Source: a virus
Length of the DNA stretch: 36,783 bases
Reading direction: 5' to 3' (one strand)
IMG/VR virus record: IMGVR_UViG_3300009431_000065
Location: 1-36,783 of that record
Each line of letters begins with the position of its first letter. The stretch's first letter is position 1. A model generated the notes under the pieces. That model searched no databases. It saw nothing but the letters and a program-made list of their open reading frames with translations, and was not told where the DNA came from. This document shows positions 2,788 through 36,783 of this stretch, in pieces. Made by a program: the position numbers and the translations under genes.

Positions 2788-2831
2788 TGGAGCCGAGGGG
2801 ATTCGAACCCCTGACCTGTTGATTGCGAATC
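2788..2831 (-). other. attP: attP core: 3' half of a tRNA gene
   Basis: Read on the minus strand, this is the 3' half of a tRNA: anticodon loop TTCGCAA, 3' stem TCAAC, five-base variable loop AGGTC, T-arm AGGGG/TTCGAAT/CCCCT, and acceptor strand CGGCTCC with discriminator A. CCA is not clearly encoded. The sequence 5' of the loop (CCCCGA) cannot form the anticodon stem, which would need GTTGA, and no D-arm or 5' acceptor strand follows. It is therefore a fragment, as carried by phages that integrate at the anticodon loop and restore the tRNA 3' end. Read literally the anticodon is CGC (alanine), but identity is uncertain because the 5' half is absent. Confidence 0.8.
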
Positions 2832-9511: not shown

Positions 9512-9876
9512 AACGCCGCGAGACCTGCGCTGGATGCGGATGGTGTTGCGACGGCAGCCTCATCATCGAGGCGACGGCGCTGGACGTGTTGCGGGAGCCC
9601 GAGATCGCACGGCGAGCCAAGCCCCTCGACCGCGATCTGGAGCCCGAGGAATGGATGTGGTCATTGTCCTGTGGCACGCCGTGCCCATTTCTAACGCCCG
9701 ACCGCCGGTGCGAAATCTACGCGACCCGGCCGGAGGCGTGCGTGGCGTTTGCCCCCGGCGAAAGCCGATGCCGCCACGGGGCCGCCCAGCCCCTCGCCAA
9801 CGATGACGAAGGCGACCTGCGCGCGTTTCGCCGCGCGGTTCGCCGAGCCGCCGAACAGAAAGAGGACACGCCATGA
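9508..9876 (+). CDS. YkgJ-family cysteine cluster protein
   Basis: The 122-residue protein has CAGCGWCC near the N-terminus (CxxCxxCC), SCGTPCPFL in the middle, RCEIYATRPEAC, and a late Cys-rich RCRHG. This is the eight-cysteine pattern of the YkgJ/UPF0153 putative zinc or Fe-S binding proteins. The biochemical role of the family is unknown. It is joined by ATGA overlaps to the PnuC-like gene and to the replication gene, which places it in the replication block. Translation starts at 9508 behind GGAGGACACGCC. Confidence 0.75.
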   Translation: MKRRETCAGCGWCCDGSLIIEATALDVLREPEIARRAKPLDRDLEPEEWMWSLSCGTPCPFLTPDRRCEIYATRPEACVAFAPGESRCRHGAAQPLANDDEGDLRAFRRAVRRAAEQKEDTP

Positions 9877-10832
9877 AGCGCGACGAGTGGTTACGGCCGG
9901 GGGACTATTCGTCTCTGCCGGATCCGTTGCGGGTGCGGCGGGACATTTCGCCGCCTGCGAAGATCGTGGCGATGGCCATGGCCGGCCATTGGCGCACGGA
10001 CGACGAGTGGATCTACCCGTCGATCGAGACCCTCGTCGCGGCGTCTGGGCAGTCGCGCAACACCGTTTTCCGCGCCGTCGAGTGCCTCGAAACCACCGGC
10101 GTGATCGAGGTCGACCGGTCCCGACGACACAACCGTTACCGTTTTCTGCCCCTCTACGCAACGGACGACGGGTCCCAAGATGGGACCAATGGAACGGACG
10201 ACGGGTCCCAAGATGGGACCAATCAGATGGGCGACGGGTCCCAAGTTGGGACCAATGGAACGGACGACGGGTCCCAAGATGGGACCAATCAGATGGGCGA
10301 CGGGTCCCAAGATGGGACCAATGGAACGGACGACGGGTCCCAAGATGGGACCCCACAGGTCCCAAGATGGGACCCCACAGGTCCCAAGATGGGACCCGAA
10401 ACACTCTTACGAAACACTCGAAGAAACACTGAATCGAATTCGAATTCGATTGTCTCTGTCGCTTTTGGTTCGACGGAAGATTCGACGGAAGATTCGACGG
10501 AAGATTCGATTTCGCCCTCGCCGCCTGGCGGCGGCGGGCGGATCGACCCTCGCCGGTTCGCGCGGTTCCTTCTCGACAAACTCCACCTGGCCAAGGGCGA
10601 CCGCAAGCAGTTCCGCGCCGATATGACGACGTTCACCACCGTCGCCGGCCATGTCATCGCCAGCCACCTGGGCCCGATCCGCCCGGCCTTCGACCGCGTG
10701 GTCCTGACGGCCATGAACGTCGCCGGCGACGCGTCGGTCAAGAACAACGCCGCGTTCTTCGTGACCTGGTTCAAGGACGAACTGTCCAAAGCCGGCCACG
10801 CATGGGGCGAGGGGGTGGACCGATGCGCGTAG
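9873..10832 (+). CDS. Replication initiator, lambda O-like, with internal origin
   Basis: The 319-residue protein has an N-terminal winged-helix domain (about 20-95): SPPAKIVAMAMAGHW, WIYPSIETLVAASGQSRNTVFRAVECLETTGVIEV. This is like the DNA-binding domain of lambda O and other phage initiators. Residues about 100-175 are low complexity because the DNA there is an iteron array (10171-10396), followed by AT-rich repeats. The C-terminal domain (about 225-319) is helical and may contact a host helicase or loader; no loader gene follows. An origin inside the initiator gene is the lambda arrangement. The central protein segment is probably only a linker. Confidence 0.8.
   Translation: MKRDEWLRPGDYSSLPDPLRVRRDISPPAKIVAMAMAGHWRTDDEWIYPSIETLVAASGQSRNTVFRAVECLETTGVIEVDRSRRHNRYRFLPLYATDDGSQDGTNGTDDGSQDGTNQMGDGSQVGTNGTDDGSQDGTNQMGDGSQDGTNGTDDGSQDGTPQVPRWDPTGPKMGPETLLRNTRRNTESNSNSIVSVAFGSTEDSTEDSTEDSISPSPPGGGGRIDPRRFARFLLDKLHLAKGDRKQFRADMTTFTTVAGHVIASHLGPIRPAFDRVVLTAMNVAGDASVKNNAAFFVTWFKDELSKAGHAWGEGVDRCA
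10171..10396. repeat. ori: Eight origin iterons
   Basis: Eight copies of the 17-bp dyad GGTCCCAAGATGGGACC start at 10171, 10204, 10237, 10270, 10303, 10336, 10358 and 10380. Copy 3 has T for A in the middle. Spacings are 33 bp five times and then 22 bp twice, all multiples of 11, so every copy lies on one DNA face. Because 22 is not a multiple of three, the last copies are translated in the two other frames. The dyad is therefore conserved as DNA. It is the likely binding site of the initiator. Confidence 0.85.
10398..10507. repeat. AT-rich unwinding region next to the iterons
   Basis: GAAACACT occurs three times (10398, 10411, 10423), then comes a perfect 20-bp palindrome of CGAATT units at 10432-10451 and three tandem 12-mers GACGGAAGATTC from 10472 to 10507. 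This is among the most AT-rich stretches in the early region and lies directly beside the iterons, as the DNA unwinding element does in iteron origins. The 12-mers also encode a repeated Asp-Ser-Thr-Glu. Confidence 0.6.
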
Positions 10833-11327: not shown

Positions 11328-12166
11328 CACGGACCGGGATCCCGTACCTGGACCTGACGCACAACCCCGGCGGGTTCGGATGCAGCGCGACCTGCCTGAC
11401 GTGTTGGGCCCGCCGCCTGGCGGCGCGGATCGGGACGAACATCGCCTGCGACGCCTGCACGCGATTCGCCGTCCACCTGCACGCCGAGCGCCTGCGCGAC
11501 CCGATCCGCCGCCGCAAGCCGGCGACGATCGGCGTGCAGTTTACCGGCGAGTTGTTCGACCCCCTGCGGCCCGCCCAGGAGGTCCACCGGGTCCTGGGCC
11601 CGATACGAAAGGCCCCGCAGCACGTGTACGTTTTTCTCACGCAGCGCCCGGACATCATGGCCGCCGAGCGGTTCCTCGGGGCCCCGGCCGAGTGGGCGAG
11701 GCCGAACTGGTTCTGCGGCGTCACCGCCCGGACGCAGGCCGAACTCGACCGCCGCATGGGCCACATGGCCCGGATCCACCACCCCAAGTGGTTATCCGCC
11801 GAGCCGATGCGCGGGCCGATGGACCTGCGAAAGCACCTGGCCGACCTGCGGGGCGTGGTCATCGGGTGCGACAACGATCCCAAGGCCGCGAAAACGGCGC
11901 CGCAGTGGATCCGGGCGATGACGCGCCAGTGCGAGGCCGCCGCCGTGCCGGTCTACGTCAAGCAGATCCGCGCCACCCGCGGCCGCCTCCTGACCGACCC
12001 CCGAGAATTCCCGGCCGACCTGGCGATCCGGGAACTGCCCTGGCCGGCCGACGGCAAGCCGGGCGGATGGGACCATTACCGCGATGCCCGCACGCCGGGC
12101 CCGCCGCAGCCGTTCCCCGCCCGCCGCGAGATCCCCGACCCCTTACTGCAGGAGCCCACGCCATGA
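11318..12166 (+). CDS. DUF5131 (phage Gp37/Gp68-like) protein
   Basis: The 282-residue protein has the family order: LTHNPGGFGCSATCLTCWARRLA near the N-terminus (Cys cluster in place of CxxGCxxCYA), then HAERLRDPIRRRKPATIGVQFTGELFD, HVYVFLTQRPD, NWFCGVTARTQ and PKWLSAEPM. DUF5131 proteins are widespread in phages and have radical-SAM-like Cys motifs, but no reaction is established. The C-terminal part with VIGCDNDPKAAKTAPQWIRAM and VYVKQ is typical. Start 11318 (or 11324) follows AAAGGAAACGCCC. It is coupled by ATGA to the methylase. Confidence 0.7.
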   Translation: MPMTRTGIPYLDLTHNPGGFGCSATCLTCWARRLAARIGTNIACDACTRFAVHLHAERLRDPIRRRKPATIGVQFTGELFDPLRPAQEVHRVLGPIRKAPQHVYVFLTQRPDIMAAERFLGAPAEWARPNWFCGVTARTQAELDRRMGHMARIHHPKWLSAEPMRGPMDLRKHLADLRGVVIGCDNDPKAAKTAPQWIRAMTRQCEAAAVPVYVKQIRATRGRLLTDPREFPADLAIRELPWPADGKPGGWDHYRDARTPGPPQPFPARREIPDPLLQEPTP

Positions 12167-13119
12167 CCAGCGGCGAGGCCACGATCAACTCGATCGCCCC
12201 ATGGTTCGGGGGCAAGCGGACCCTTGCCCCGGTGATCATCGGCGAATTGGGCCCGCACTCGGCGTATTGGGAACCGTTCTGCGGATCGTGCGCCGTGTTA
12301 CTGGCCAAGGCCGAATCGTCCCACGAGACGGTCAACGATTTGCACCGCGACCTGGTGAACCTGGCAACGGTCCTGATATCGCCGCGGTGGGCCGACCTCT
12401 ACGGACGCCTTGGCCGATGGATCATGACCGAGGACGGATACGCCGAGGCCCGCGAGCGGATCTCCAATCCACCGGCGGACGTGGTGACCGACCCGGCCGT
12501 CGTGGGCGAGTCGCATGTGGACAGGGCGTTCTGGTATTTCATTGCATCCTGGGCCGGGCGAAACGGGACGTCAGGCACGCGGGGATACAACTACCAGATG
12601 GCCGTGCGGTGGACCCCCGGCGGCGGGGCCGGCGGCCAGCGGTTCGCCTCGGCGACCGATTCGATTCCCGCGTGGCATCGCCGATTGCGGCGCGTGACGG
12701 TCCTGAACCGCGACGCCTTCGACGTCCTGGCCGCCATCCAGGACGACCCGGGCGTGGCGGTCTACGTGGACCCTCCGTACCTCAAGGCCACGCGAACCGG
12801 AAGCCTTTATCTCCACGACCTGGACGAATGCCAGCACGCGGACCTGGCCGAGGCCCTGACGCGCTTTCACCACGCCCGCGTGGTCGTCAGTTACTACGAC
12901 CACCCCAAACTGGATGACCTGTATCCCGATTGGACCAAGCGCCCCGTTTACCGGATGAAGAACCTCCATGTGCAGAACCGCCGCGGCCTGACCAAGACCA
13001 CGGCCCCGGAAGTCCTCCTGATCAACGGCCCGAGTTACGCCCGCGCGGCCGACGATGCAACCCCGTTGTTCGGACCTTCAACCTTCAACCTTGACCCTTC
13101 AACCGAGGACACGCCATGA
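12163..13119 (+). CDS. D12-class DNA adenine methylase (Dam-like)
   Basis: The 318-residue protein has PWFGGKRTLAPVI (SAM-binding start, about 13-25), EPFCGSCAVLLAKAES (about 37-52) with NDLHRDLVNL, and catalytic DPPY at about 202-205 followed by YLKATRTGSLYLHD. This is the motif order X-I-IV of alpha-class adenine methylases such as Dam. Target specificity cannot be read off directly; GATC or a related site is likely. It may protect phage DNA from restriction or time replication or packaging. The C-terminal 20 residues come from a repeat of the CCTTCAA type. Confidence 0.9.
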   Translation: MTSGEATINSIAPWFGGKRTLAPVIIGELGPHSAYWEPFCGSCAVLLAKAESSHETVNDLHRDLVNLATVLISPRWADLYGRLGRWIMTEDGYAEARERISNPPADVVTDPAVVGESHVDRAFWYFIASWAGRNGTSGTRGYNYQMAVRWTPGGGAGGQRFASATDSIPAWHRRLRRVTVLNRDAFDVLAAIQDDPGVAVYVDPPYLKATRTGSLYLHDLDECQHADLAEALTRFHHARVVVSYYDHPKLDDLYPDWTKRPVYRMKNLHVQNRRGLTKTTAPEVLLINGPSYARAADDATPLFGPSTFNLDPSTEDTP

Positions 13120-14280: not shown

Positions 14281-15207
14281 ATGGCCGCGACGCGCACATC
14301 GTGGATCGCCACCGCCCGGAACCTCCTGGAGGTGTTCTACGCCGCCCAGAAACCCACGACCCGGCGGGCCTACGAAGCGGACATCGCCGCCTTTCGGCGA
14401 TTCATCGGGGCCGACAGCGCCGCCGTCGCCGTCGCCGACCTGATCCGAAGCGGCCAGGGGGCCGCCCTCGAACAGGCCACGTTGTACAAGGCCGCCCTGG
14501 GCAACACCGTCGCCCCGGCCACCGTCAACCGCCGCCTGGCGGCCCTGCGGTCCCTGACCCGGACGGCCCGCAACCTGCAGAAGATCACCTGGCGGTTGCG
14601 GATCCCGCCCCTGCGCGTGATCCGCCAGCGGGACACCGCCGGGCCCGGCCGCCAGGCCGTCCACGACATGATCGCCATCGCCGAGGCCACCGGCGGCATG
14701 AAGGGCCCGCGCGACGCGGCGATGATCTGGTTGTTCTACGGCCTGGCCCTGCGCCGAGGAGAAGTCCAGCAGTTAAACCGCCAGGACGTCCACCTGGAAC
14801 GCCGCCCGCCGGCGATCGACGTCCTGGGCAAGGGCCAGTATCAGCGGCGGCGGATGACCCTGCCCGAGCGCGTGGTCGAGGCCGTGGCGACCTGGGCCGT
14901 GGTCCGCGGCGACCACGACGGGCCGTTGTTTACGACCCTCAGCCGGGCCCACGACAACGCCCGCCGCCTCAGCGCCGGGTCGATCGTGCGGATCGTCAAG
15001 GCCCTCGGCCGCGCCGCCGGGGTCGAGACCAGCCCCCACGGCCTGCGGCACACGGCGATCACCGAGACGATCCGCGCCCCGGGGTCCAACATGGGCGACG
15101 TCCAGGGGTTCAGCCGCCACGCCCGGATCGAGACCCTCCAGGCCTATTACGACCGCGACGCCGACGCGGCGGTTGAACTGGCCACGCGCATCACGGAGGA
15201 CCTGTGA
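14281..15207 (+). CDS. Second tyrosine recombinase, XerC/D-like
   Basis: The 308-residue protein has the Xer size and full catalytic set: core-binding domain at about 10-105, Arg 158 in GLALRRGEVQQL, Lys 184 in GKGQYQRRRMTLP, HGLRH (His 253, Arg 256), His 280 in FSRHARI and nucleophile Tyr 289 or 290 in LQAYYDRD. Unlike the attP-linked integrase it lacks an N-terminal arm-binding extension, as in XerC/D and Cre-type resolvases that use simple sites. A dif-like dyad lies 84 bp behind its stop. Plausible roles are multimer resolution of the replicating circle or use of a host dif-like site. Confidence 0.88.
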   Translation: MAATRTSWIATARNLLEVFYAAQKPTTRRAYEADIAAFRRFIGADSAAVAVADLIRSGQGAALEQATLYKAALGNTVAPATVNRRLAALRSLTRTARNLQKITWRLRIPPLRVIRQRDTAGPGRQAVHDMIAIAEATGGMKGPRDAAMIWLFYGLALRRGEVQQLNRQDVHLERRPPAIDVLGKGQYQRRRMTLPERVVEAVATWAVVRGDHDGPLFTTLSRAHDNARRLSAGSIVRIVKALGRAAGVETSPHGLRHTAITETIRAPGSNMGDVQGFSRHARIETLQAYYDRDADAAVELATRITEDL

Positions 15208-15878
15208 TGCGCAGCGCCGAGACCCGCGATCGACGGCCGTCGGAGCCCCGGACGGCGCCCGGCGGACCCCCCCCAAGCGCTGTGGACGCCTTAGCGCGCC
15301 ACAACTACGGTTATGTCGCGCTTAAATCGGACAGCGCGCCAAGGCCCGCATCGCCGAAGCCGTCGGCGCCCATGCACTTACCGCAGAAATCGCCCCGCGA
15401 AATCGCAAAAAACCTGAACGTTCAGGTCAACCGTTTGTATAGTCCCGAAAACGGGCACAGTCAAGAGGATATTTCAGCGGAAAAACACCCCTCATCGTTG
15501 CCGATATGGCGGGACCGATCGCACAGCCCAATGAGCAGTGATATCGCCGCCCGCAAATCGATTCTAAGCGACTTTCTCGATTCCAAAAGCGACCGCCACA
15601 GGCCGCGAGAGTTTCCCCGTGAGCGACGATCGCCAGCAGACGTACCACACCCCGCCGCAACCGGAGATATGGCCGCAGGAGCAAGCCAGTGGCCTCAGGA
15701 CAAAAGGTACTACCGACGCCACAGCGACAACTGGAATCTCCACACGCCGCGCTTTTTTGACACAGTCCGTCCGTCGGGCCTCCTGAGCGAGAAAGTCGAC
15801 CAGGGCCAAACGTCGCAAGCCGTCGAGGCCGCCAGGGCCACGACCCCCACACGCCGGCCGGAGCCCCGAATCGCGTGA
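15207..15878 (+). CDS. Doubtful ORF in lower-GC boundary segment
   Basis: An open frame of up to 223 codons runs from just behind the recombinase to the TerL start, with which it shares a GTGA overlap. Codon use is unlike the neighbours: third positions are often A or T over 15290-15780. No ribosome site precedes any start. An inner start at 15372 would give MHLPQKSPREIAKNLNVQV, a stretch like a helix-turn-helix. The rest (RRYYRR-like, Ser/Pro/Arg-rich) looks unstructured. It may be a transferred gene, a regulatory region that is open by chance, or a small TerS-like gene at the usual place before TerL. Confidence 0.3.
   Translation: MRSAETRDRRPSEPRTAPGGPPPSAVDALARHNYGYVALKSDSAPRPASPKPSAPMHLPQKSPREIAKNLNVQVNRLYSPENGHSQEDISAEKHPSSLPIWRDRSHSPMSSDIAARKSILSDFLDSKSDRHRPREFPRERRSPADVPHPAATGDMAAGASQWPQDKRYYRRHSDNWNLHTPRFFDTVRPSGLLSEKVDQGQTSQAVEAARATTPTRRPEPRIA
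15291..15325. other. dif/lox-like recombination site candidate
   Basis: Left arm TTAGCGCGCCACAA (15291-15304), six-base centre CTACGG (15305-15310) and right arm TTATGTCGCGCTTAA (15311-15325) form a dyad with 11 of 14 arm positions paired. Arms of 11-14 bp around a six-base centre are the geometry of Xer dif sites. The right arm begins TTATGT, like the XerD arm of E. coli dif. It lies 84 bp downstream of the Xer-like recombinase gene. No binding evidence; a single copy is visible. Confidence 0.5.
15412..15427. promoter_or_regulatory. 16-bp perfect palindrome, possible operator before late genes
   Basis: ACCTGAACGTTCAGGT is a perfect dyad. Ten bases further is TATAGT (15438-15443), which could be a -10 with the palindrome over a weak -35 (TGAACG, 17-bp spacer). 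A small hairpin CCCG-AAAA-CGGG follows at 15444-15455. This would be a regulated promoter for the terminase and late genes. The promoter reading is weak; the palindrome itself is clear. Confidence 0.4.
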
Positions 15879-18001
15879 GACCCCAGATCCTGACATTACG
15901 CAGGGCGGCCGACGCGGAGAGAGTCCGCGACGCCGAGCGCGTCCGGACCCGACGGGCCCTCGGCCGCGAGATCACCATCCCCGAGATCCGCAACCCGCGC
16001 CGCCGGCGCAAGTGCAAGCAGGCCCCCGCGGTCTTCCTCCGGACGTACTTCCCGGACATCTTCTACAACCCGTTCAGCAAGACCCAGCGCAAGATGATCG
16101 AGGCCTTCAAGACCTGCATCGCCCAGGTCGGATGGAAGGCGATCGCCGCCGAGCGCGGCGGCGGCAAGACCAACATCTCCCTCGGCCTGGCCATCTACGC
16201 GATCTGTTACGGGTTCCGGGATTTCGTCGTGATCGTCGGCGCCAACGCCACCGAGGCCGACCGCAACGCCGAGCAGGTCAAGGGCAAGTTTGAGGACCCC
16301 GAGCGATGGCCCGACCTGGCGGCCGACTTCCCGGAGATCTGCGCCCCCGTCCAGGCCCTCGAGGGCGCCGCCCAGCGGGCCCGCCAGATGTCCTACCAGG
16401 GCCGCCTCCTGCGGATGAAGTGGTCCAGCGAGATGATCCGATTCCCCGAGGTCCCCGGGTCCGACGCCGGCGGGGCCATCCTCCTGTCCCGCGGCCTGGA
16501 CGCCGCGATCCGCGGCACGCAATACGACGGCCGCCGGCCGAACCTCGTCCTGGTCGACGACCCGGAAACCGCCGCCAGCGCCCGCAGCGAGGAGCAGACC
16601 AACCAGCTCGAGGAGCGCCTCGAACGCGACATCGCCGGCATGACCGGCCCGACCCGGTCGATTTCGATATTGTACCTCGGCACGATCATGCACCGGAACT
16701 GCCTGGCCGACCGGTTCACCGACCGCGAGCGGAAACCCGCCTGGTCCGGCGAGCGTCACCCCCTCCTGATCCAGTACCCCGACCGGATGGACCTCTGGCA
16801 AGAGTACATCGACCAGTACCGCCGCGACACCGCCTGGGGCGACGTCCTGTACACCAAGGCCCACAAGATGTTTCTCCGCCGCCGCCGCATGATGGAAGCC
16901 GGCGCCATCGTCACCAACCCGCATCACTTCAAGCACGACCCGAAGGAGAACCGTCCGGACGGGACGCCCCTGGAGCGGTCGACCCTCCAGTTCTGCATGA
17001 ACATGATCGCCAAGGTCGGCCAGGAGGCGTTCGACTCGGAATACCAGCAGATCCCGCCGAGCCACGAGGCCCCGCAGACCGCCGAGATCGCCCGCCCCGA
17101 CGTGGTGACGGCCCTGACCGGCAAGCCCCGCGGCCTGGTCCCGGCCGACACCGCGTACCTGACCGCCGGCATCGACGCCGGGGCCCGCCTGTGCCACTGG
17201 GTCGTCATGGCCACGGCCAACGCCGTCAGTCACGTGATCGATTACGGGGCCGAGCGCGTCAACAGCCCCCTGGAGACCGACCTGAAGGCCCCGGACGTCC
17301 AGCAGGCCGTCGAGGCCGCCATCCTGACCGCGCTGCTCCAGATCCGCGACGTCTTCAACGCCGGATGGCCGACCGAGGATACCGGCGAGATCCGCCACCT
17401 CGACACCTGCCTGGTCGACGCCGGATACAAGGACACCGCCGTGTACACCTTCGTCAAGAGCGGCCCCCGCGGCCTGTACCGCGCCAGCAAGGGGTTCGGA
17501 TCCAAGAGCGGCCAGTCGAGATACAAGCACCCGACCAAGAAAGGCCACGGCCGGCGGATCGGGGCCCACTGGTTCGCCACCCACCAGCCGGCGCCGAAGG
17601 TCTGGTTGTACCACCTCGACGCCGATTTCTGGAAGGAGCGCGTCCAGATCGGGTTCATGTTGCCCAAGGACGGCCAGCGCCGCCCGGGGGCGACGACCGT
17701 CTTCGGATCCGACCCCGCCGTCCACACGCGGTTTGCCGACCACATCACCGCCGAGGTCCGAACCACCGTCTACCGCCAGGGCAAGGAACTGACGTACTGG
17801 AACGTCAAACGGCCGCGGAACCACTGGCTCGATTGCCTGTACATGGCCGCCGCCGCCGCGGCGGTCTGCGGCCAGCCGATCATCACCGACCAGGCCACCG
17901 CCGCCGCCGGCGCCACCGCCCCGCCGACCCGCGACACCGCCGCGACCAAGAAACGCATGAAGATGTCCGAACGCCAGGCCGCCAAACGAGCGGCCGTATA
18001 G
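15875..18001 (+). CDS. terL: Terminase large subunit
   Basis: The 708-residue packaging motor has ATPase Walker A AAERGGGKTN (about 91-100), Walker B LVLVDDPE (about 224-231) and an RNase-H-like nuclease with acidic residues in GIDAG (about 431), LVDAGYK (about 513) and NHWLDCLYMA (about 648). Length and the Cys-free nuclease resemble GpA-like/T4-like large terminases. It cuts and pumps DNA into the prohead through the portal. The start is GTG at 15875 by overlap with the previous frame; the ribosome site is weak. It opens the late operon, and unusually the TerS-like gene lies 1.5 kb downstream. Confidence 0.9.
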   Translation: MRPQILTLRRAADAERVRDAERVRTRRALGREITIPEIRNPRRRRKCKQAPAVFLRTYFPDIFYNPFSKTQRKMIEAFKTCIAQVGWKAIAAERGGGKTNISLGLAIYAICYGFRDFVVIVGANATEADRNAEQVKGKFEDPERWPDLAADFPEICAPVQALEGAAQRARQMSYQGRLLRMKWSSEMIRFPEVPGSDAGGAILLSRGLDAAIRGTQYDGRRPNLVLVDDPETAASARSEEQTNQLEERLERDIAGMTGPTRSISILYLGTIMHRNCLADRFTDRERKPAWSGERHPLLIQYPDRMDLWQEYIDQYRRDTAWGDVLYTKAHKMFLRRRRMMEAGAIVTNPHHFKHDPKENRPDGTPLERSTLQFCMNMIAKVGQEAFDSEYQQIPPSHEAPQTAEIARPDVVTALTGKPRGLVPADTAYLTAGIDAGARLCHWVVMATANAVSHVIDYGAERVNSPLETDLKAPDVQQAVEAAILTALLQIRDVFNAGWPTEDTGEIRHLDTCLVDAGYKDTAVYTFVKSGPRGLYRASKGFGSKSGQSRYKHPTKKGHGRRIGAHWFATHQPAPKVWLYHLDADFWKERVQIGFMLPKDGQRRPGATTVFGSDPAVHTRFADHITAEVRTTVYRQGKELTYWNVKRPRNHWLDCLYMAAAAAAVCGQPIITDQATAAAGATAPPTRDTAATKKRMKMSERQAAKRAAV

Positions 18002-21119: not shown

Positions 21120-22693
21120 GCCGACAACCCCGACAACCCGGCCTGATCCAGCGCGTCGTCGCGGCGATCCGCAACCGGCCGGCCGGGCCGTCCGGCCCAC
21201 GGACGATCAAGGTCATCCGCCAGCCGGGCCAGGAGCGGACCTTCTTTGACGGGGCCGACTCGAACAAGTACACGCAAAACCACTTCGCCCACGCCACCAC
21301 CGCCGACATCAACACCGTCGTCCGGGCCGACCTGCCCCGCCTGCGCCAGTGGTGCCGGTACGAGGGCCACAACAACGGATACGCCCGCGGGATCATCGAG
21401 ACCCTCGCCAACGACATCGTCGGCCGCGGCCCCCGGGCCCAGGTCACCATCGACGGCGAGGGCCCCGACGAGACGATCGCCCAGCGCATCGAGGACGACT
21501 GGGCCCGGTGGTGCGAGCACTGCGACGCCGACGGCCGCCAGAGTTTCGGCGAGATGTTGGCCCTGGCCGTCAAGCAGTGCCCGGCCGCCGGCGAGGCGTT
21601 CATCGTCATGACCAGCGACCCGGCCGCCCGCCCAAACGAGGTGGCCCTGCGCCTGCGCCTGATCGAGGGCGACCGCGTCTCGACGCCGTACGGCCTGTTC
21701 GTCGACAAGACCGTCGCCGACGGGATCCGGTTCGACGCCGAGAGGCGGCCCACGCATTACCTGGTCCTCAAGAAACACCCCGGCGACACCGGGAGCCTGA
21801 CGATCGTCAACCCGGCCGATTACGACGAAGTGCCGGCCGGCCAGATCGTCCACGTCTACCGCCCCGAGCGGCCGAGCCAGCATCGCGGGATCCCCTGGTT
21901 CGCCTCGGCCCTGATCCCCCTGGCCCACCTGCGGCGGTACACCCTGGCCACCGTCAACGCCGCCGAGAACGCCGCCTCGATCAGCGCCGTGACCTACACC
22001 ACCCTGCCCGGCGTGGACGTCAAGGCCGACGAGGAATTCGACGAAGTCGAGATCCCCCGCGGCAGCCTCCTGACCCTGCCGGCCGGATACGACATGAAAC
22101 CGTTTACGCCGAGCCAGCCCACCGCGACGTATGCGACGTTCAAGGGCGAGATCCTCGACGAGATCGGCCGCGGCCTGTCGATGCCCCACAACGTCGTGGC
22201 CGGCAATTCCAGCGGATACAACTACGCCTCGGGCCGCCTGGACTGGCAGACCTATTTCCGGATGATCCGGACCGACCAGGCCTGGATCGGCCGCCTCTGC
22301 ACGCGGATCTTCCGGGCCTGGTATGCCGAGTATTACATGACGCGCCGGACCCTGAGCACCCTCGCCGGCGCCGCCAGGCCGGAGGTCCAGTGGTTCTGGC
22401 CCGGCCACCAGCACGTGGACCCGGCCAAGGAGGCCAACGCCCAGCGCATCCGCCTCAACAGCCTGACGACCACCCTCGAGGACGAATGGGCCGCCCTGGG
22501 ATTCGATTGGCGCCGCAAGGTAAAGCAGATCGCCGTCGAACGCGACTTCGTCGCCGACCTCGGCCTGCGGATCGAGGACGCCGCCCCGGCCGTCGCCGCG
22601 ATCGAGGACGCCCAGGCCGCCGAGGCCGCCGCCGAGACCGCCGCACAGGACACCACCGATGACGAAGCGACAAGCCAAACCGCCGCGGCCTGA
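21116..22693 (+). CDS. Portal protein, lambda gpB-like
   Basis: The 525-residue protein shows the lambda portal pattern: FFDGADSNKYTQNHF at the N-terminus, LRQWCRYEGHNNGYARGIIETLANDIVGRGPR, GEAFIVM, LIEGDRV, HVYRPERPSQHRGIPWFASALIPL, and SMPHNVVAGNSSGYNYASGRLDWQTYFRMI. The dodecameric portal is the DNA entry gate of the prohead and docks the terminase. The C-terminal 40 residues are acidic and Ala-rich. Its 3' end overlaps the protease-capsid gene by 35 bases. Confidence 0.9.
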   Translation: MSRQPRQPGLIQRVVAAIRNRPAGPSGPRTIKVIRQPGQERTFFDGADSNKYTQNHFAHATTADINTVVRADLPRLRQWCRYEGHNNGYARGIIETLANDIVGRGPRAQVTIDGEGPDETIAQRIEDDWARWCEHCDADGRQSFGEMLALAVKQCPAAGEAFIVMTSDPAARPNEVALRLRLIEGDRVSTPYGLFVDKTVADGIRFDAERRPTHYLVLKKHPGDTGSLTIVNPADYDEVPAGQIVHVYRPERPSQHRGIPWFASALIPLAHLRRYTLATVNAAENAASISAVTYTTLPGVDVKADEEFDEVEIPRGSLLTLPAGYDMKPFTPSQPTATYATFKGEILDEIGRGLSMPHNVVAGNSSGYNYASGRLDWQTYFRMIRTDQAWIGRLCTRIFRAWYAEYYMTRRTLSTLAGAARPEVQWFWPGHQHVDPAKEANAQRIRLNSLTTTLEDEWAALGFDWRRKVKQIAVERDFVADLGLRIEDAAPAVAAIEDAQAAEAAAETAAQDTTDDEATSQTAAA

Positions 22694-24881
22694 GCCCCTG
22701 GCCACCCGGTCCCCCGCAACGGCGACCCCCGCCGCCGAGGCCACCGACGCGATGATCGCCGACCTCGAGGCCCGCGACCTGTTCACGCGGACGTTCAGCC
22801 TCCGGGCCCGGACGATCGACGAGGACCACCGCAGCGTCGAGGCCGCGATCGCCACCGAGGCCCCCGTCCGCGTCTGGGACTGGCATCGCGGCGAGATGGT
22901 CCACGAGATCCTCCTCATGGACGGCGTCGACCTGCCCGACAGCCGCCAGGTCCCCCTCCTGGACAGCCACAACCGATGGTCGATCGATTCGCAACTCGGA
23001 TCGACCCGCAACCTCCGCGTCGACGGCGACAGTCTGATCGGCGAAAACACCTTCGCCGGCACGCCGGCCGGCGACGCGGCGTTCGCCCTGGTCCGCGAAG
23101 GCCACCTGACCGACAACTCCGTCGGGTACCGCGTACACGCCTCGGTGATCATCGAGCCCGGCGAGAGCGAGGAAATCAACGGCCGAACATTCACCGCCAA
23201 GGAACTGCCGTTGAAGGTCTCGACCCGGTGGAGCCCCCACGAAAACTCCGTCTGCGCCATCGGGGCCGACGCGGCCGCCAAGAACCGGGCAGACACCCCA
23301 CCAGCAACGACCCCCCGTCAAGCCGACACACGAAAGGACAGAGACATGGGATTCAACGAATGGTTACAGGCACGCGGCCTCGACCCCGAGGCCCTGACCG
23401 ACGAGCAACGAACCGCCCTGCGGGCCGATTATGACGCCGAGCAGGTCCGCAACGCCGCCGGCGACAACGAGACCCCGCCGGCCGGCCCGCCGGACCCGGA
23501 GCCCCTGCGGATTCCCCCCGAGGACCTCGACGCGGCCATGGACCGGGCCGTCGACCGCCGGGCCGAGCGCGAGGCCGCCCAGCGGCGGGGCCGCATCACC
23601 GAACTGGCCGAGATGGCCGGCGTCGATGACGAGACCCGCGACGCGGTCCTGGCCGACACGGCGGTCACCGTCGCGGCCGCCCGCGAGCGGTTCGTCGAGC
23701 GCATGCGGGACCAGCGCCCGGGCGTCCCGGCCGCCCACGTCGCCCCGTCGGCGGCCGACGCCGACCGCCGCACGGTCGAGGCCGCCCTCCTGATCCGTGG
23801 CGGACACGGCGAGGCGGCGGCCGCCCGCGACGAGTACAGCGACCCCGTCATGGACCACGGCCACCGCCTCCGCGGGGTCACCATGGAGGACCTGTGCCGC
23901 CACGCCCTGCGCCTGGCCGGCCAGGCGGTCCCGATCGGCCGCGAGGAGATGATCCGCGCCGCGATCTCGACCGGATCGTTCAGCGAGATCACCTCCAACG
24001 TCGCCGGGGTTTCCGCCCTGCAGGGCGCCCTGTCGGTCGCCCAGACCTGGCGGGCCTGGTGCAGCACCGGATCGGTGAGCAATTTCCAGGCCAACAAGAT
24101 GGTCCGCCTGGACATCGCCGGGAACCTGCAGACCGTCGGCGCCGACGGCAAACTGCAACACATCAACCTCGAGGACACCGGCGAGAGCATCACCGCCGAG
24201 ACCAAGGGCAACATCCTGACCGTCACCCGCAAGACCATCCGCGACGACCGGATCGGGATCCTGACAAAGGCCCCCATGGAACTCGGCAAGGGCGCCATCC
24301 AGACGATCAGCCAGACCGTCTACACCCTCCTCCTGGCCAACGGGAACATGGGCGACGGCAATGCCATCTTCGACGCCACCAACCGCGGGAACCTGAACAC
24401 CAGCACGACCCTGGACCCGGTCGGCATCGCCACCGCCGCGGCGTCCCTGGCGGCGATGACCAACGCCAAGGGCCAGCCCCGCGACCTGATCCCGGCCGTC
24501 CTCCTGGTCCCGCCCGACCAGTACAATGACGCCTGGTCCTGCGTCAGCCAGCCGGCCATCATCGCCGCCGGCCTGGCATCCACCAGCGCCGCCAGTTACA
24601 GCCCGGCCGTCCACGCCTACGGCGACGGGTCCATCAAGCCCGTGCAGGAAAGCCGCCTGTCGAATGCCAATTACACCGGGTACAGCGCCACGTCGTGGTA
24701 CCTGATGGCGGCCCCCAGCCAGTGCGACAACGTCCGGGTCGATTTCCTCGACGGCGTCCAGACGCCGACGGTCCGCCAGGTCAGCCCCGGCCCCGGCGTC
24801 CTGGGCGTGGCGTTCGAGGTCTTCATCGACTACGGCGTCGCCGCCGCCGACGGCCAGGGCATGATCCTCAACCAGGAATAG
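22659..24881 (+). CDS. Prohead protease-major capsid fusion
   Basis: The 740-residue product joins two head proteins. Residues about 40-205 are an S78 prohead protease: RSVEAAIATEAPVRVWDW, LLDSHNRWSID (His about 104) and LTDNSVGYRVHAS (Ser about 153). A Glu/Ala/Arg-rich helical delta-domain (about 230-390) follows as a built-in scaffold, then an HK97-fold capsid (about 400-740) with SEITSNVAGVSALQGALSVAQTWRAWC and C-terminal VAFEVFIDYGVAAADGQGM. An internal in-frame ATG at 23346 has its own ribosome site. The full-length product would be a minor form. Confidence 0.85.
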   Translation: MTKRQAKPPRPEPLATRSPATATPAAEATDAMIADLEARDLFTRTFSLRARTIDEDHRSVEAAIATEAPVRVWDWHRGEMVHEILLMDGVDLPDSRQVPLLDSHNRWSIDSQLGSTRNLRVDGDSLIGENTFAGTPAGDAAFALVREGHLTDNSVGYRVHASVIIEPGESEEINGRTFTAKELPLKVSTRWSPHENSVCAIGADAAAKNRADTPPATTPRQADTRKDRDMGFNEWLQARGLDPEALTDEQRTALRADYDAEQVRNAAGDNETPPAGPPDPEPLRIPPEDLDAAMDRAVDRRAEREAAQRRGRITELAEMAGVDDETRDAVLADTAVTVAAARERFVERMRDQRPGVPAAHVAPSAADADRRTVEAALLIRGGHGEAAAARDEYSDPVMDHGHRLRGVTMEDLCRHALRLAGQAVPIGREEMIRAAISTGSFSEITSNVAGVSALQGALSVAQTWRAWCSTGSVSNFQANKMVRLDIAGNLQTVGADGKLQHINLEDTGESITAETKGNILTVTRKTIRDDRIGILTKAPMELGKGAIQTISQTVYTLLLANGNMGDGNAIFDATNRGNLNTSTTLDPVGIATAAASLAAMTNAKGQPRDLIPAVLLVPPDQYNDAWSCVSQPAIIAAGLASTSAASYSPAVHAYGDGSIKPVQESRLSNANYTGYSATSWYLMAAPSQCDNVRVDFLDGVQTPTVRQVSPGPGVLGVAFEVFIDYGVAAADGQGMILNQE
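23346..24881 (+). CDS. Major capsid protein from an internal in-frame start
   Basis: ATG 23346 follows GAAAGGACAGAGAC, the same leader that precedes the decoration gene at 24998 (GAAAGGACAGAACC). It gives a 511-residue protein starting MGFNEWLQARGLDPEALTDEQ, a normal length for a delta-domain plus HK97-fold capsid. The segment before it (Thr/Pro-rich, ADTPPATTPRQADTRKDRD) looks like an inter-gene linker. Separate translation would supply capsid in excess over protease. Confidence 0.6.
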   Translation: MGFNEWLQARGLDPEALTDEQRTALRADYDAEQVRNAAGDNETPPAGPPDPEPLRIPPEDLDAAMDRAVDRRAEREAAQRRGRITELAEMAGVDDETRDAVLADTAVTVAAARERFVERMRDQRPGVPAAHVAPSAADADRRTVEAALLIRGGHGEAAAARDEYSDPVMDHGHRLRGVTMEDLCRHALRLAGQAVPIGREEMIRAAISTGSFSEITSNVAGVSALQGALSVAQTWRAWCSTGSVSNFQANKMVRLDIAGNLQTVGADGKLQHINLEDTGESITAETKGNILTVTRKTIRDDRIGILTKAPMELGKGAIQTISQTVYTLLLANGNMGDGNAIFDATNRGNLNTSTTLDPVGIATAAASLAAMTNAKGQPRDLIPAVLLVPPDQYNDAWSCVSQPAIIAAGLASTSAASYSPAVHAYGDGSIKPVQESRLSNANYTGYSATSWYLMAAPSQCDNVRVDFLDGVQTPTVRQVSPGPGVLGVAFEVFIDYGVAAADGQGMILNQE

Positions 24882-34901: not shown

Positions 34902-36783
34902 GTGCCGGCCAAGATCGCCGACATCACGCGCCCGACGGTCGAGACGCGAGAGGACTGGACCGACGAATGGGAGCCGAGGCCGAACCTCACGCCGGTCACC
35001 GCCAAGGCCAACCTGGCCCCGGCGGTCCCCGAGGCGGCCCTGCGATGGCATTACGGCGAGATCGACGACGGCGACGGCGCCGGCCGCAAGACCGTCGCCC
35101 CGATCGACCTGAGAGGCCATTACGTCCGCCTGGTCGACCCGGGCCCGCCGGAGCGGGCCGTCTGGCACGGCGTGATCACCGGCGAGGCCGACAACGCCGG
35201 CATGGCCGACCTGGACGAACCGACCGGAACGCAGATCCTCCAGGCCCGCGGCCTGGAATGGATCCTCCACCACACGCCGATCGACGGGTCGATCGTGGAA
35301 CTGTCGGCGACCGCCGAGACCATCACCCGCCGCCTGGCCTGGAACACCCCGCACGCCGAGGGCCTGGCCGTCCAGGGCAACCGGTCGTCGAGCAAGTACC
35401 AGGCCCCGTCGGGGGAGTCGTCGTACATTTTCAGCGCCGACGGCGAGACCTGGACCGCCCGGGACATCGCCGAGTACGTCCTGGCCTGGTTCGGCGACGA
35501 CGACCTCGCCTTCGACCTGGCCGGCCTGCACGCCAACCTGGCGGCCTTCACCGCCGCGGTGGGCCCCATGCGGACCGTCGGCGACGTCCTGGACGCGGTC
35601 GCCTGCCGCCAGCGGGGCCACGCCTGGCGGGTGATCGTCAACGTCGACAACACCGCCAGCGTGGAGATTTTTTCGGCCTTCGATCAAGACGTGACCGTCG
35701 GTGCCGTGACCCTGGCCGCCAGCGCCGAAGTGATCGACCTGCCCCGGTCCAACTACAGCAGCGTCACCCTGACCAGCGACGCCGCCGCGCGATACGGCGA
35801 GGTCGTCGTCCGCGGGTCCCCCATCCTCCTGGTCGGGACGTTCGATTACGATTCGGCGACCCTCGCCAAGGCCTGGACGGCGGCCCAGGAAACCGCCTAT
35901 GAGGCCGCCACCGAGGCCAACCGCAAGGGCGAGAAATACCAGAGCGTCTTCACCGCCCACCGGATCCCCGCCGACAAACTGCCCGGCGGCCCGGTCTGCA
36001 ACGCCGACGGGACCCTGGCCGCCGGGCCGGCCAAGATCCTCGCCTACGGCAAGCAGATCCTCCGGCAGATCCCCCTCCGCCTGACCGCCGACGATTCCGA
36101 CGCCCCGGACGATTTCAGGTCGCCCCTGGTGGTGATCGACAACGACCCCGGCGGCACGACGACGTACGAACCCGTCGACAAACTCGCCAAGAGCGACAAC
36201 CGCCGGCCGAACATGACCGTCGTACCCCTCGACGGCGAGCCCGGCATCCGGATCATCGTTCATCCGAACTACATGCTCGGCCGCAACCATTACACCGACG
36301 GGGCGTCGTTCGACTGGCCGGAGGCCTCGGCCGTCGACTACGACACGATCTACGCCACCGTGGCGTGGTACAGCGACGAACACCTGTCGGTCACCGCCGA
36401 CCTCGGCGGCGGCATCGGCGGGACGTTGGTGATCGACATCCCCGAGGCCCAGTGTTGGTACCGCCTGGCCGACACGATGGTCGACGTCGCCGGCGGCAGT
36501 CGGACCGAGGAGGCCGCCGCGGCCACCCTGCGCACCGACGCGGCCCAACTGACGGCGATCGCCGCGATGGCCAAGGCGTGGTACGGCCGCGACCGCCGCG
36601 GCGCCGTGGCCATCCTCGAAGTCATCGACATGGCCGACCAGATCGGCGTCCTGCTTAACGGATTCACCACCCCGGGCCACGACCAGGACATCGAGGTCAA
36701 CAGCCTCATCACGGAGGTCGCCTGGGACTTCGACCGCGGCACGACCACCCTCCGATCGGATTTCACGGAACTGGACTTCTCGA
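34902..36783 (+). CDS. Tail tip/baseplate hub protein (right-open)
   Basis: The start is GTG 34902 (VPAKIADITRPTVETREDW) behind AGGAGGATAGCCC, the best Shine-Dalgarno in the tail block. At least 627 residues reach the window edge. Early segments (LRGHYVRLVDPGPPERAVWHGVITGEADNA, then TGTQILQARGLEWILHHTPI) have the beta-barrel pattern of gp27/gpD-like hub proteins; later ones include SYIFSADGETWTARDIAEYVLAWF. The frame continues across the circle junction into the collar-domain part at base 1-548. Full product about 809 residues: hub, Pro-rich linker, collar. Confidence 0.75.
   Translation, partial: MPAKIADITRPTVETREDWTDEWEPRPNLTPVTAKANLAPAVPEAALRWHYGEIDDGDGAGRKTVAPIDLRGHYVRLVDPGPPERAVWHGVITGEADNAGMADLDEPTGTQILQARGLEWILHHTPIDGSIVELSATAETITRRLAWNTPHAEGLAVQGNRSSSKYQAPSGESSYIFSADGETWTARDIAEYVLAWFGDDDLAFDLAGLHANLAAFTAAVGPMRTVGDVLDAVACRQRGHAWRVIVNVDNTASVEIFSAFDQDVTVGAVTLAASAEVIDLPRSNYSSVTLTSDAAARYGEVVVRGSPILLVGTFDYDSATLAKAWTAAQETAYEAATEANRKGEKYQSVFTAHRIPADKLPGGPVCNADGTLAAGPAKILAYGKQILRQIPLRLTADDSDAPDDFRSPLVVIDNDPGGTTTYEPVDKLAKSDNRRPNMTVVPLDGEPGIRIIVHPNYMLGRNHYTDGASFDWPEASAVDYDTIYATVAWYSDEHLSVTADLGGGIGGTLVIDIPEAQCWYRLADTMVDVAGGSRTEEAAAATLRTDAAQLTAIAAMAKAWYGRDRRGAVAILEVIDMADQIGVLLNGFTTPGHDQDIEVNSLITEVAWDFDRGTTTLRSDFTELDFS

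Follow-up and report, generated by a model that had tools for sequence, protein, structure and literature searches.

What does the second tyrosine recombinase of a temperate phage act on, and what is it for? The question is raised by a gene at 14281-15207, and by a dyad that follows it, in a stretch of 36,783 bp (here called the window) that is a whole IMG/VR record. Searches for relatives of the window among phage records at the DNA level and for relatives of its terminase in viral contigs found none, and an Rfam search of the window gave no match. When the two ends of the record (34902-36783 and 1-548) are joined, the reading frame continues across them to give a tail-like ORF of 809 aa; the record is classed as linear. 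A complete, circularly permuted genome is the probable explanation, though the frame match could also have arisen by chance. Elsewhere in the window, 22659-24881 encodes a fusion of prohead protease and major capsid protein (NF045541, E=2e-111, below the curated cut-off).

The gene (14281-15207, plus strand) encodes a simple, Xer-type tyrosine recombinase of 308 aa. Its GC content at the three codon positions is 0.70/0.53/0.94, and the GC3 of 0.94 matches that of the other genes of the phage. The protein matches Pfam PF00589 (E=9e-18) and, weakly, an N-terminal SAM-like domain from residue 25. Across alignments of 24 and 34 members, R158, K184, H253, R256 and Y289 are invariant and H280 nearly so; with the R-K-H-R-H residues, the tyrosine and the catalytic-domain fold all present, the protein qualifies as a tyrosine recombinase. 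An AlphaFold2 model (mean pLDDT 92.7, pTM 0.72) consists of a five-helix N-terminal (core-binding) part and the catalytic domain, with no further domain, and neither the model nor the domain search revealed an arm-binding N-terminal domain. The alignments, domain search and model thus bear out the original prediction, made from the window's sequence, that this recombinase has all six catalytic residues and no arm-binding extension.

Which known recombinases does it resemble? The closest solved folds were archaeal XerC-like/XerA proteins, followed by integron integrase, Cre and XerH; the IntBrujita-type structure 5vfz was also among the matches. TM-scores were about 0.5, probably due to differing domain angles. 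Cre was matched by fold alone and not by sequence. Against the XerC and XerD models the protein scored below both cut-offs (TIGR02224, 83 bits versus 335; TIGR02225, 55 versus 330), and it likewise fell below the curated cut-off of the XerS model (NF003462, 46 bits versus 267).

Upstream of the recombinase, on the same strand, lie genes for a replication-initiation-like protein (HTH_36, 9873-10832) and a D12-class adenine methyltransferase (11380-13119), and the order RepA, adenine methylase, recombinase recurs in phage L010. Downstream is the terminase large subunit, with a GpA-type nuclease domain (15875-18001, plus strand). Domain and family searches identified a separate phage integrase of 399 aa, with an N-terminal extension, on the minus strand at 1580-2779. 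Beside it, a 37-nt sequence (2788-2824, minus strand) matches a tRNA 3' end from one planctomycete genome at 37/37 positions, and its near-identical matches are tRNA-Ala(CGC). This match suggests that 2788-2824 is the probable attP core of the integrase at 1580-2779 and that the host is a planctomycete, and it supports the earlier view that the phage already has a separate integrase that targets a tRNA gene.

Is the dyad anything but a chance palindrome? On re-measurement it was as first described: it occupies 15291-15325, begins 84 bp past the recombinase stop, and has 14-bp arms around a centre of 6, the right arm carrying TTATGT. Eleven of its 14 arm positions pair. Counting this one, the window has 15 dyads of the same geometry that pair as well or better, and a repeat search of the window reported no repeat for it. 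Judged by pairing alone, the dyad is at chance level and unremarkable; hence, the initial evidence was not significant on its own. The dyad gains significance only from comparison with relatives.

Judged by synteny, the closest relatives are L034 and L035, two MAG contigs from Planctomycetales. Their recombinases are 49% identical to that of the window, and after the gene come a non-coding gap and the same terminase (47%). This order recurs in a contig from Phycisphaerales (L069), and all three have a gap equivalent to 15208-15874 of the window. An ORF at 15207-15878 spans the dyad, but its codon-position GC is flat (0.63/0.56/0.69) and a domain search found no family match. With a GC3 of 0.69 and no family, we rejected a coding reading of this ORF, and the site probably lies in a non-coding gap between recombinase and terminase. 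Just before the terminase, at 15690-15775, the gap also holds an element, AAAGGTACTACCGAC...CGCGCTTTTTTGAC, that is found whole or in part in L034/L035 and is a possible packaging (cos) site.

Other homologues, at 33-45% identity, come from Azospirillum prophages, MAG contigs, a Desulfomonile plasmid and cyanobacterial plasmids, for a family of about 60 related recombinases. A quick tree split 63 rows, including the window, from 45 others, with SH-aLRT 99. Six tested proteins from the outside branch scored 183-337 bits on XerC/XerD-type models, compared with about 55-118 for family members. Matches in viral contigs at about 26% identity (L002-L009) formed a separate group in the tree. A search of open-licence papers returned Cre/lox, XerS, XerH, XerL and the simple recombinase classes and no description of this family, which is weak evidence of novelty.

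We asked whether the dyad accompanies the homologues, a check that the original prediction had proposed, and the prediction withstood it. In phages, MAGs and plasmids with recombinases of 33-49% identity, the same 11-6-11 site stands beside the gene, its arms altered yet palindromic. The site type is an 11-bp arm ending AA, a variable 6-bp centre and an 11-bp arm starting TTAT (TTTT in some plasmids), as in the Azospirillum phages (GCTTGCGAAAA-N6-TTATCGCAAGC), L054 (ACTAACGAAAA-TCAGCA-TTATCGTTAGT), L055 (GTTACCTTAAA-CATACA-TTATAGGTAAC) and L118 (AGTATCGAAAA-GGTTTA-TTTTCGATAGT). L034/L035 keep the inner motifs, the position and TTATGT, with only 5-6 of 11 arm pairs. Sites in phages lie downstream of the recombinase, mostly within 0-530 bp and at about 1.0-1.1 kb in L010/L015/L017. 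The same recombinase-site pair is found on plasmids, some of which also have annotated genes for ParA/ParB or replication. Of ten cyanobacterial plasmids, nine have a candidate site 28-73 bp upstream of the recombinase start, three of the nine being weak (shuffle p 0.008-0.064); the tenth has no candidate near the start. With a strict motif filter, 30 of the 62 distinct family members had a site close to the gene, compared with 0 of the 48 weaker homologues, many of the 30 members being related Azospirillum phages and one or two 8/11 matches possibly chance. About half of the family showed no adjacent site by this filter; in these members the site may be further off, have other inner bases or be absent. 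Further planctomycete homologues mostly had no clear adjacent site.

Arm sequences vary by lineage, and left and right arms change together. Among 26 sites we counted 54 cells with changes on both sides versus 18.8 in shuffles (score 0.481 versus 0.160), a signal whose strength these controls overstate, since the sites were chosen partly for palindromy. Sliding the partners by one base abolished the covariation, and the lineage differences in arm sequence do not depend on palindrome-based selection. The 11-6-11 alignment is gap-free across all 26 sites, and 22 of them carry a mismatch at one position, three bases from the centre, with A/G/C in the left arm and T in the right. Spacers of 4 and 8 are also enriched near recombinase genes, because the palindrome is nested; the assignment of the centre is fixed by the inner AA/TT motifs, and the points of strand exchange are putative. 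Centre sequences vary between close phages, and two A. cavernae loci have sites with different centres. All nine Azospirillum virus records examined have one site each, which argues against DNA inversion. On this comparative evidence, we conclude that the pairing of gene and site is well supported by sequence.

Within the window, the predicted recombination site is 15294-15321 (plus strand), 28 bp comprising a left arm GCGCGCCACAA (15294-15304), the centre CTACGG (15305-15310) and a right arm TTATGTCGCGC (15311-15321). Nine of 11 arm positions pair; the earlier dyad is this site plus outer bases. A matrix built from 14 other sites, with the window excluded, ranked it fifth of 73,512 positions by matrix score alone and first when palindrome score was added. 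It was also the only match to the strict filter in the 36.8 kb, both strands included; 0.0 matches were expected from 200 shuffles, an expectation qualified by the filter's motifs having been taken partly from a prior view of the window.

We put the probability at about 70% that 14281-15207 and 15294-15321 form a self-contained Xer-type, Cre/lox-like system with a single recombinase, most likely for multimer resolution. Two protomers would bind the two 11-bp arms. A dimer or multimer of circular phage DNA would carry two sites, which would pair in direct orientation, and strand exchange across the 6-bp centre would release monomer circles. The site would owe its direction to its asymmetric centre and to the mismatch fixed three bases away from it, while integration at the tRNA gene would be performed by the integrase at 1580-2779. 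Multimer resolution is the most likely role, inferred, as are binding and catalysis, from sequence comparison; it is favored by one site per replicon, linkage to the gene, occurrence on plasmids, symmetric arms and a free centre. Symmetric arms suit a single enzyme, and a freely varying centre would keep elements that share a cell separate, as with the two A. cavernae loci. For an integrated prophage, multimer resolution has no obvious use; the need would fall in the circular, replicating phase.

Might the recombinase instead be a second integrase, with its site acting as an additional attP directed at host dif or at some other locus in the host? Some phages, such as Brujita (PMC8138268), do integrate by means of a simple tyrosine recombinase, elements able to integrate at host dif are known (PMC2731167, PMC9765430), and the right arm of L034, TTATGTTAAGT, is near the classical XerD arm. 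However, in four Azospirillum genomes and one large plasmid, exact or one-mismatch copies of the phage site lie at recombinase loci, inside prophages, and the only other matches are two with three mismatches, which resemble each other. The dif-like sites of these hosts, which are hosts of the relatives, are C[AG]CATAA-N6-TTATGGAAA, with arms unlike those of the phage site; the same pattern found no dif match in the L034/L035 genomes. In three Azospirillum genomes (G010, G012 and G013) this pattern occurs on many contigs per genome, with differing centres. The centre also varies between close phages, which would not be expected of a core that has to pair with one fixed attB.

Where the ends of a prophage could be mapped, they pointed the same way. 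The A. oryzae prophage is bounded by a 106-bp repeat that holds the 3' part of tRNA-Pro, its copies 46.1 kb apart, and the recombinase and its site lie about 16-17.5 kb inside; hence, the recombinase is not the integrase of that prophage. A second integrase was present in seven of 12 virus records, near the record end in four of the seven, and the records that lack one may be fragments. Second integrases, the tRNA-Pro ends in A. oryzae and the tRNA match beside the window's own integrase indicate that integration is most likely performed by another enzyme. We therefore consider it unlikely that the recombinase is a second integrase. Of the two roles that the original prediction had offered, a Cre/lox-like multimer resolver fits best; entry at host dif sites gained no support, given that good copies of the site in Azospirillum hosts occur only in prophages, that host dif arms differ, and that the A. 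oryzae prophage ends at tRNA-Pro.

We wondered if the pair might be selected for recombination between phage genomes, by cointegration or arm swapping, rather than for multimer resolution. Where Azospirillum phages are compared, a 90%-identical block of about 2 kb often breaks off one base beyond the site. Six of these phages (L014, L019-L021, L025 and L026) have unrelated inserts of about 140-530 bp that start at the site's right edge. Yet the common sequence resumes beyond the inserts, and no second site was found at their far ends. Integron-like cassette capture is thereby ruled out, and the inserts read as ordinary gene insertion into the gap, which suffices to explain the edge. Differing centres, moreover, should block exchange between phages. 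We regard selection for exchange between phages as quite improbable.

Could the dyad serve the recombinase gene as operator or terminator, or belong to a packaging site? It adjoins the gene, and in the window it lies in the gap before the terminase, but it is found upstream of the gene in plasmids and downstream, at up to about 1.1 kb, in phages. The 11-6-11 layout is fixed, its inner AA...TT invariant and its centre free, which argues against such a role, as does the presence of the site on plasmids without packaging genes, and we think any of these roles very improbable. Least probable of all is that the window dyad is a coincidence while the sites of relatives are real: its pairing and fifth place by matrix alone, its TTATGT in place of the commoner TTATCG, and its distance of 86 bp from the stop versus 18 bp in L034/L035 would allow it, but its first place by combined score, its being the sole strict match (the filter having drawn in part on motifs already observed in the window) and the TTATGT it has in common with L034/L035 speak against it.

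How does the multimer-resolving system proposed here compare with known ones? Cre/loxP resolves multimers of phage P1 (PMC2409434) and has phage-plasmid relatives including VCre and SCre (PMC4957104). Like these, the window has a phage-encoded, single simple tyrosine recombinase, a linked palindromic site with an asymmetric centre, and a presumed role in multimer resolution. It differs in site layout (13-8-13 for Cre/lox, 11-6-11 here), in the XerA/XerC-like sequence neighbours of its protein, and in that P1 is a plasmid prophage whereas this phage integrates with a separate tRNA integrase. The single-recombinase Xer systems XerS/difSL and XerH/difH (PMC2731167) and XerL/dif (PMC9765430) likewise pair one Xer-type enzyme with a dif-like site, linked to the gene in XerS and most XerH systems; a linked site of this kind was found in the present family as well. 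Here, in contrast, the pair resides on phages and plasmids and not at the chromosome terminus, its arms are lineage specific, and the protein scores far below the XerS, XerC and XerD cut-offs. XerCD/dif has the same 11-6-11 layout, inner ..AA/TTAT.. and domain plan, but uses two enzymes and not one; the hosts' own dif-like sites differ in their arms, and in the quick tree the family is set apart from XerC/D-like proteins (SH-aLRT 99). IntBrujita-type enzymes (PMC8138268) are also simple tyrosine recombinases of temperate phages, with a fold match in 5vfz, whereas the recombinase here is apparently not an integrase, given the second integrase with its tRNA att site and the internal position of the site in the mapped relative.

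Recombinases are easily found and their targets are not; here, enzyme and site adjoin. Lineage-specific arms yield dozens of predicted enzyme/site pairs that are directly testable, and some could perhaps be used beside Cre/lox. Why does a phage that integrates at a tRNA gene retain a second, plasmid-type recombination system for keeping monomers? We suggest, tentatively and with more doubt than confidence, that the window belongs to a widespread, undescribed family of gene-plus-site modules found, in many phyla, both in tailed phages that integrate and in circular plasmids, whose centres may diversify to separate co-resident elements and whose presence would imply a plasmid-like circular phase that needs multimer resolution.
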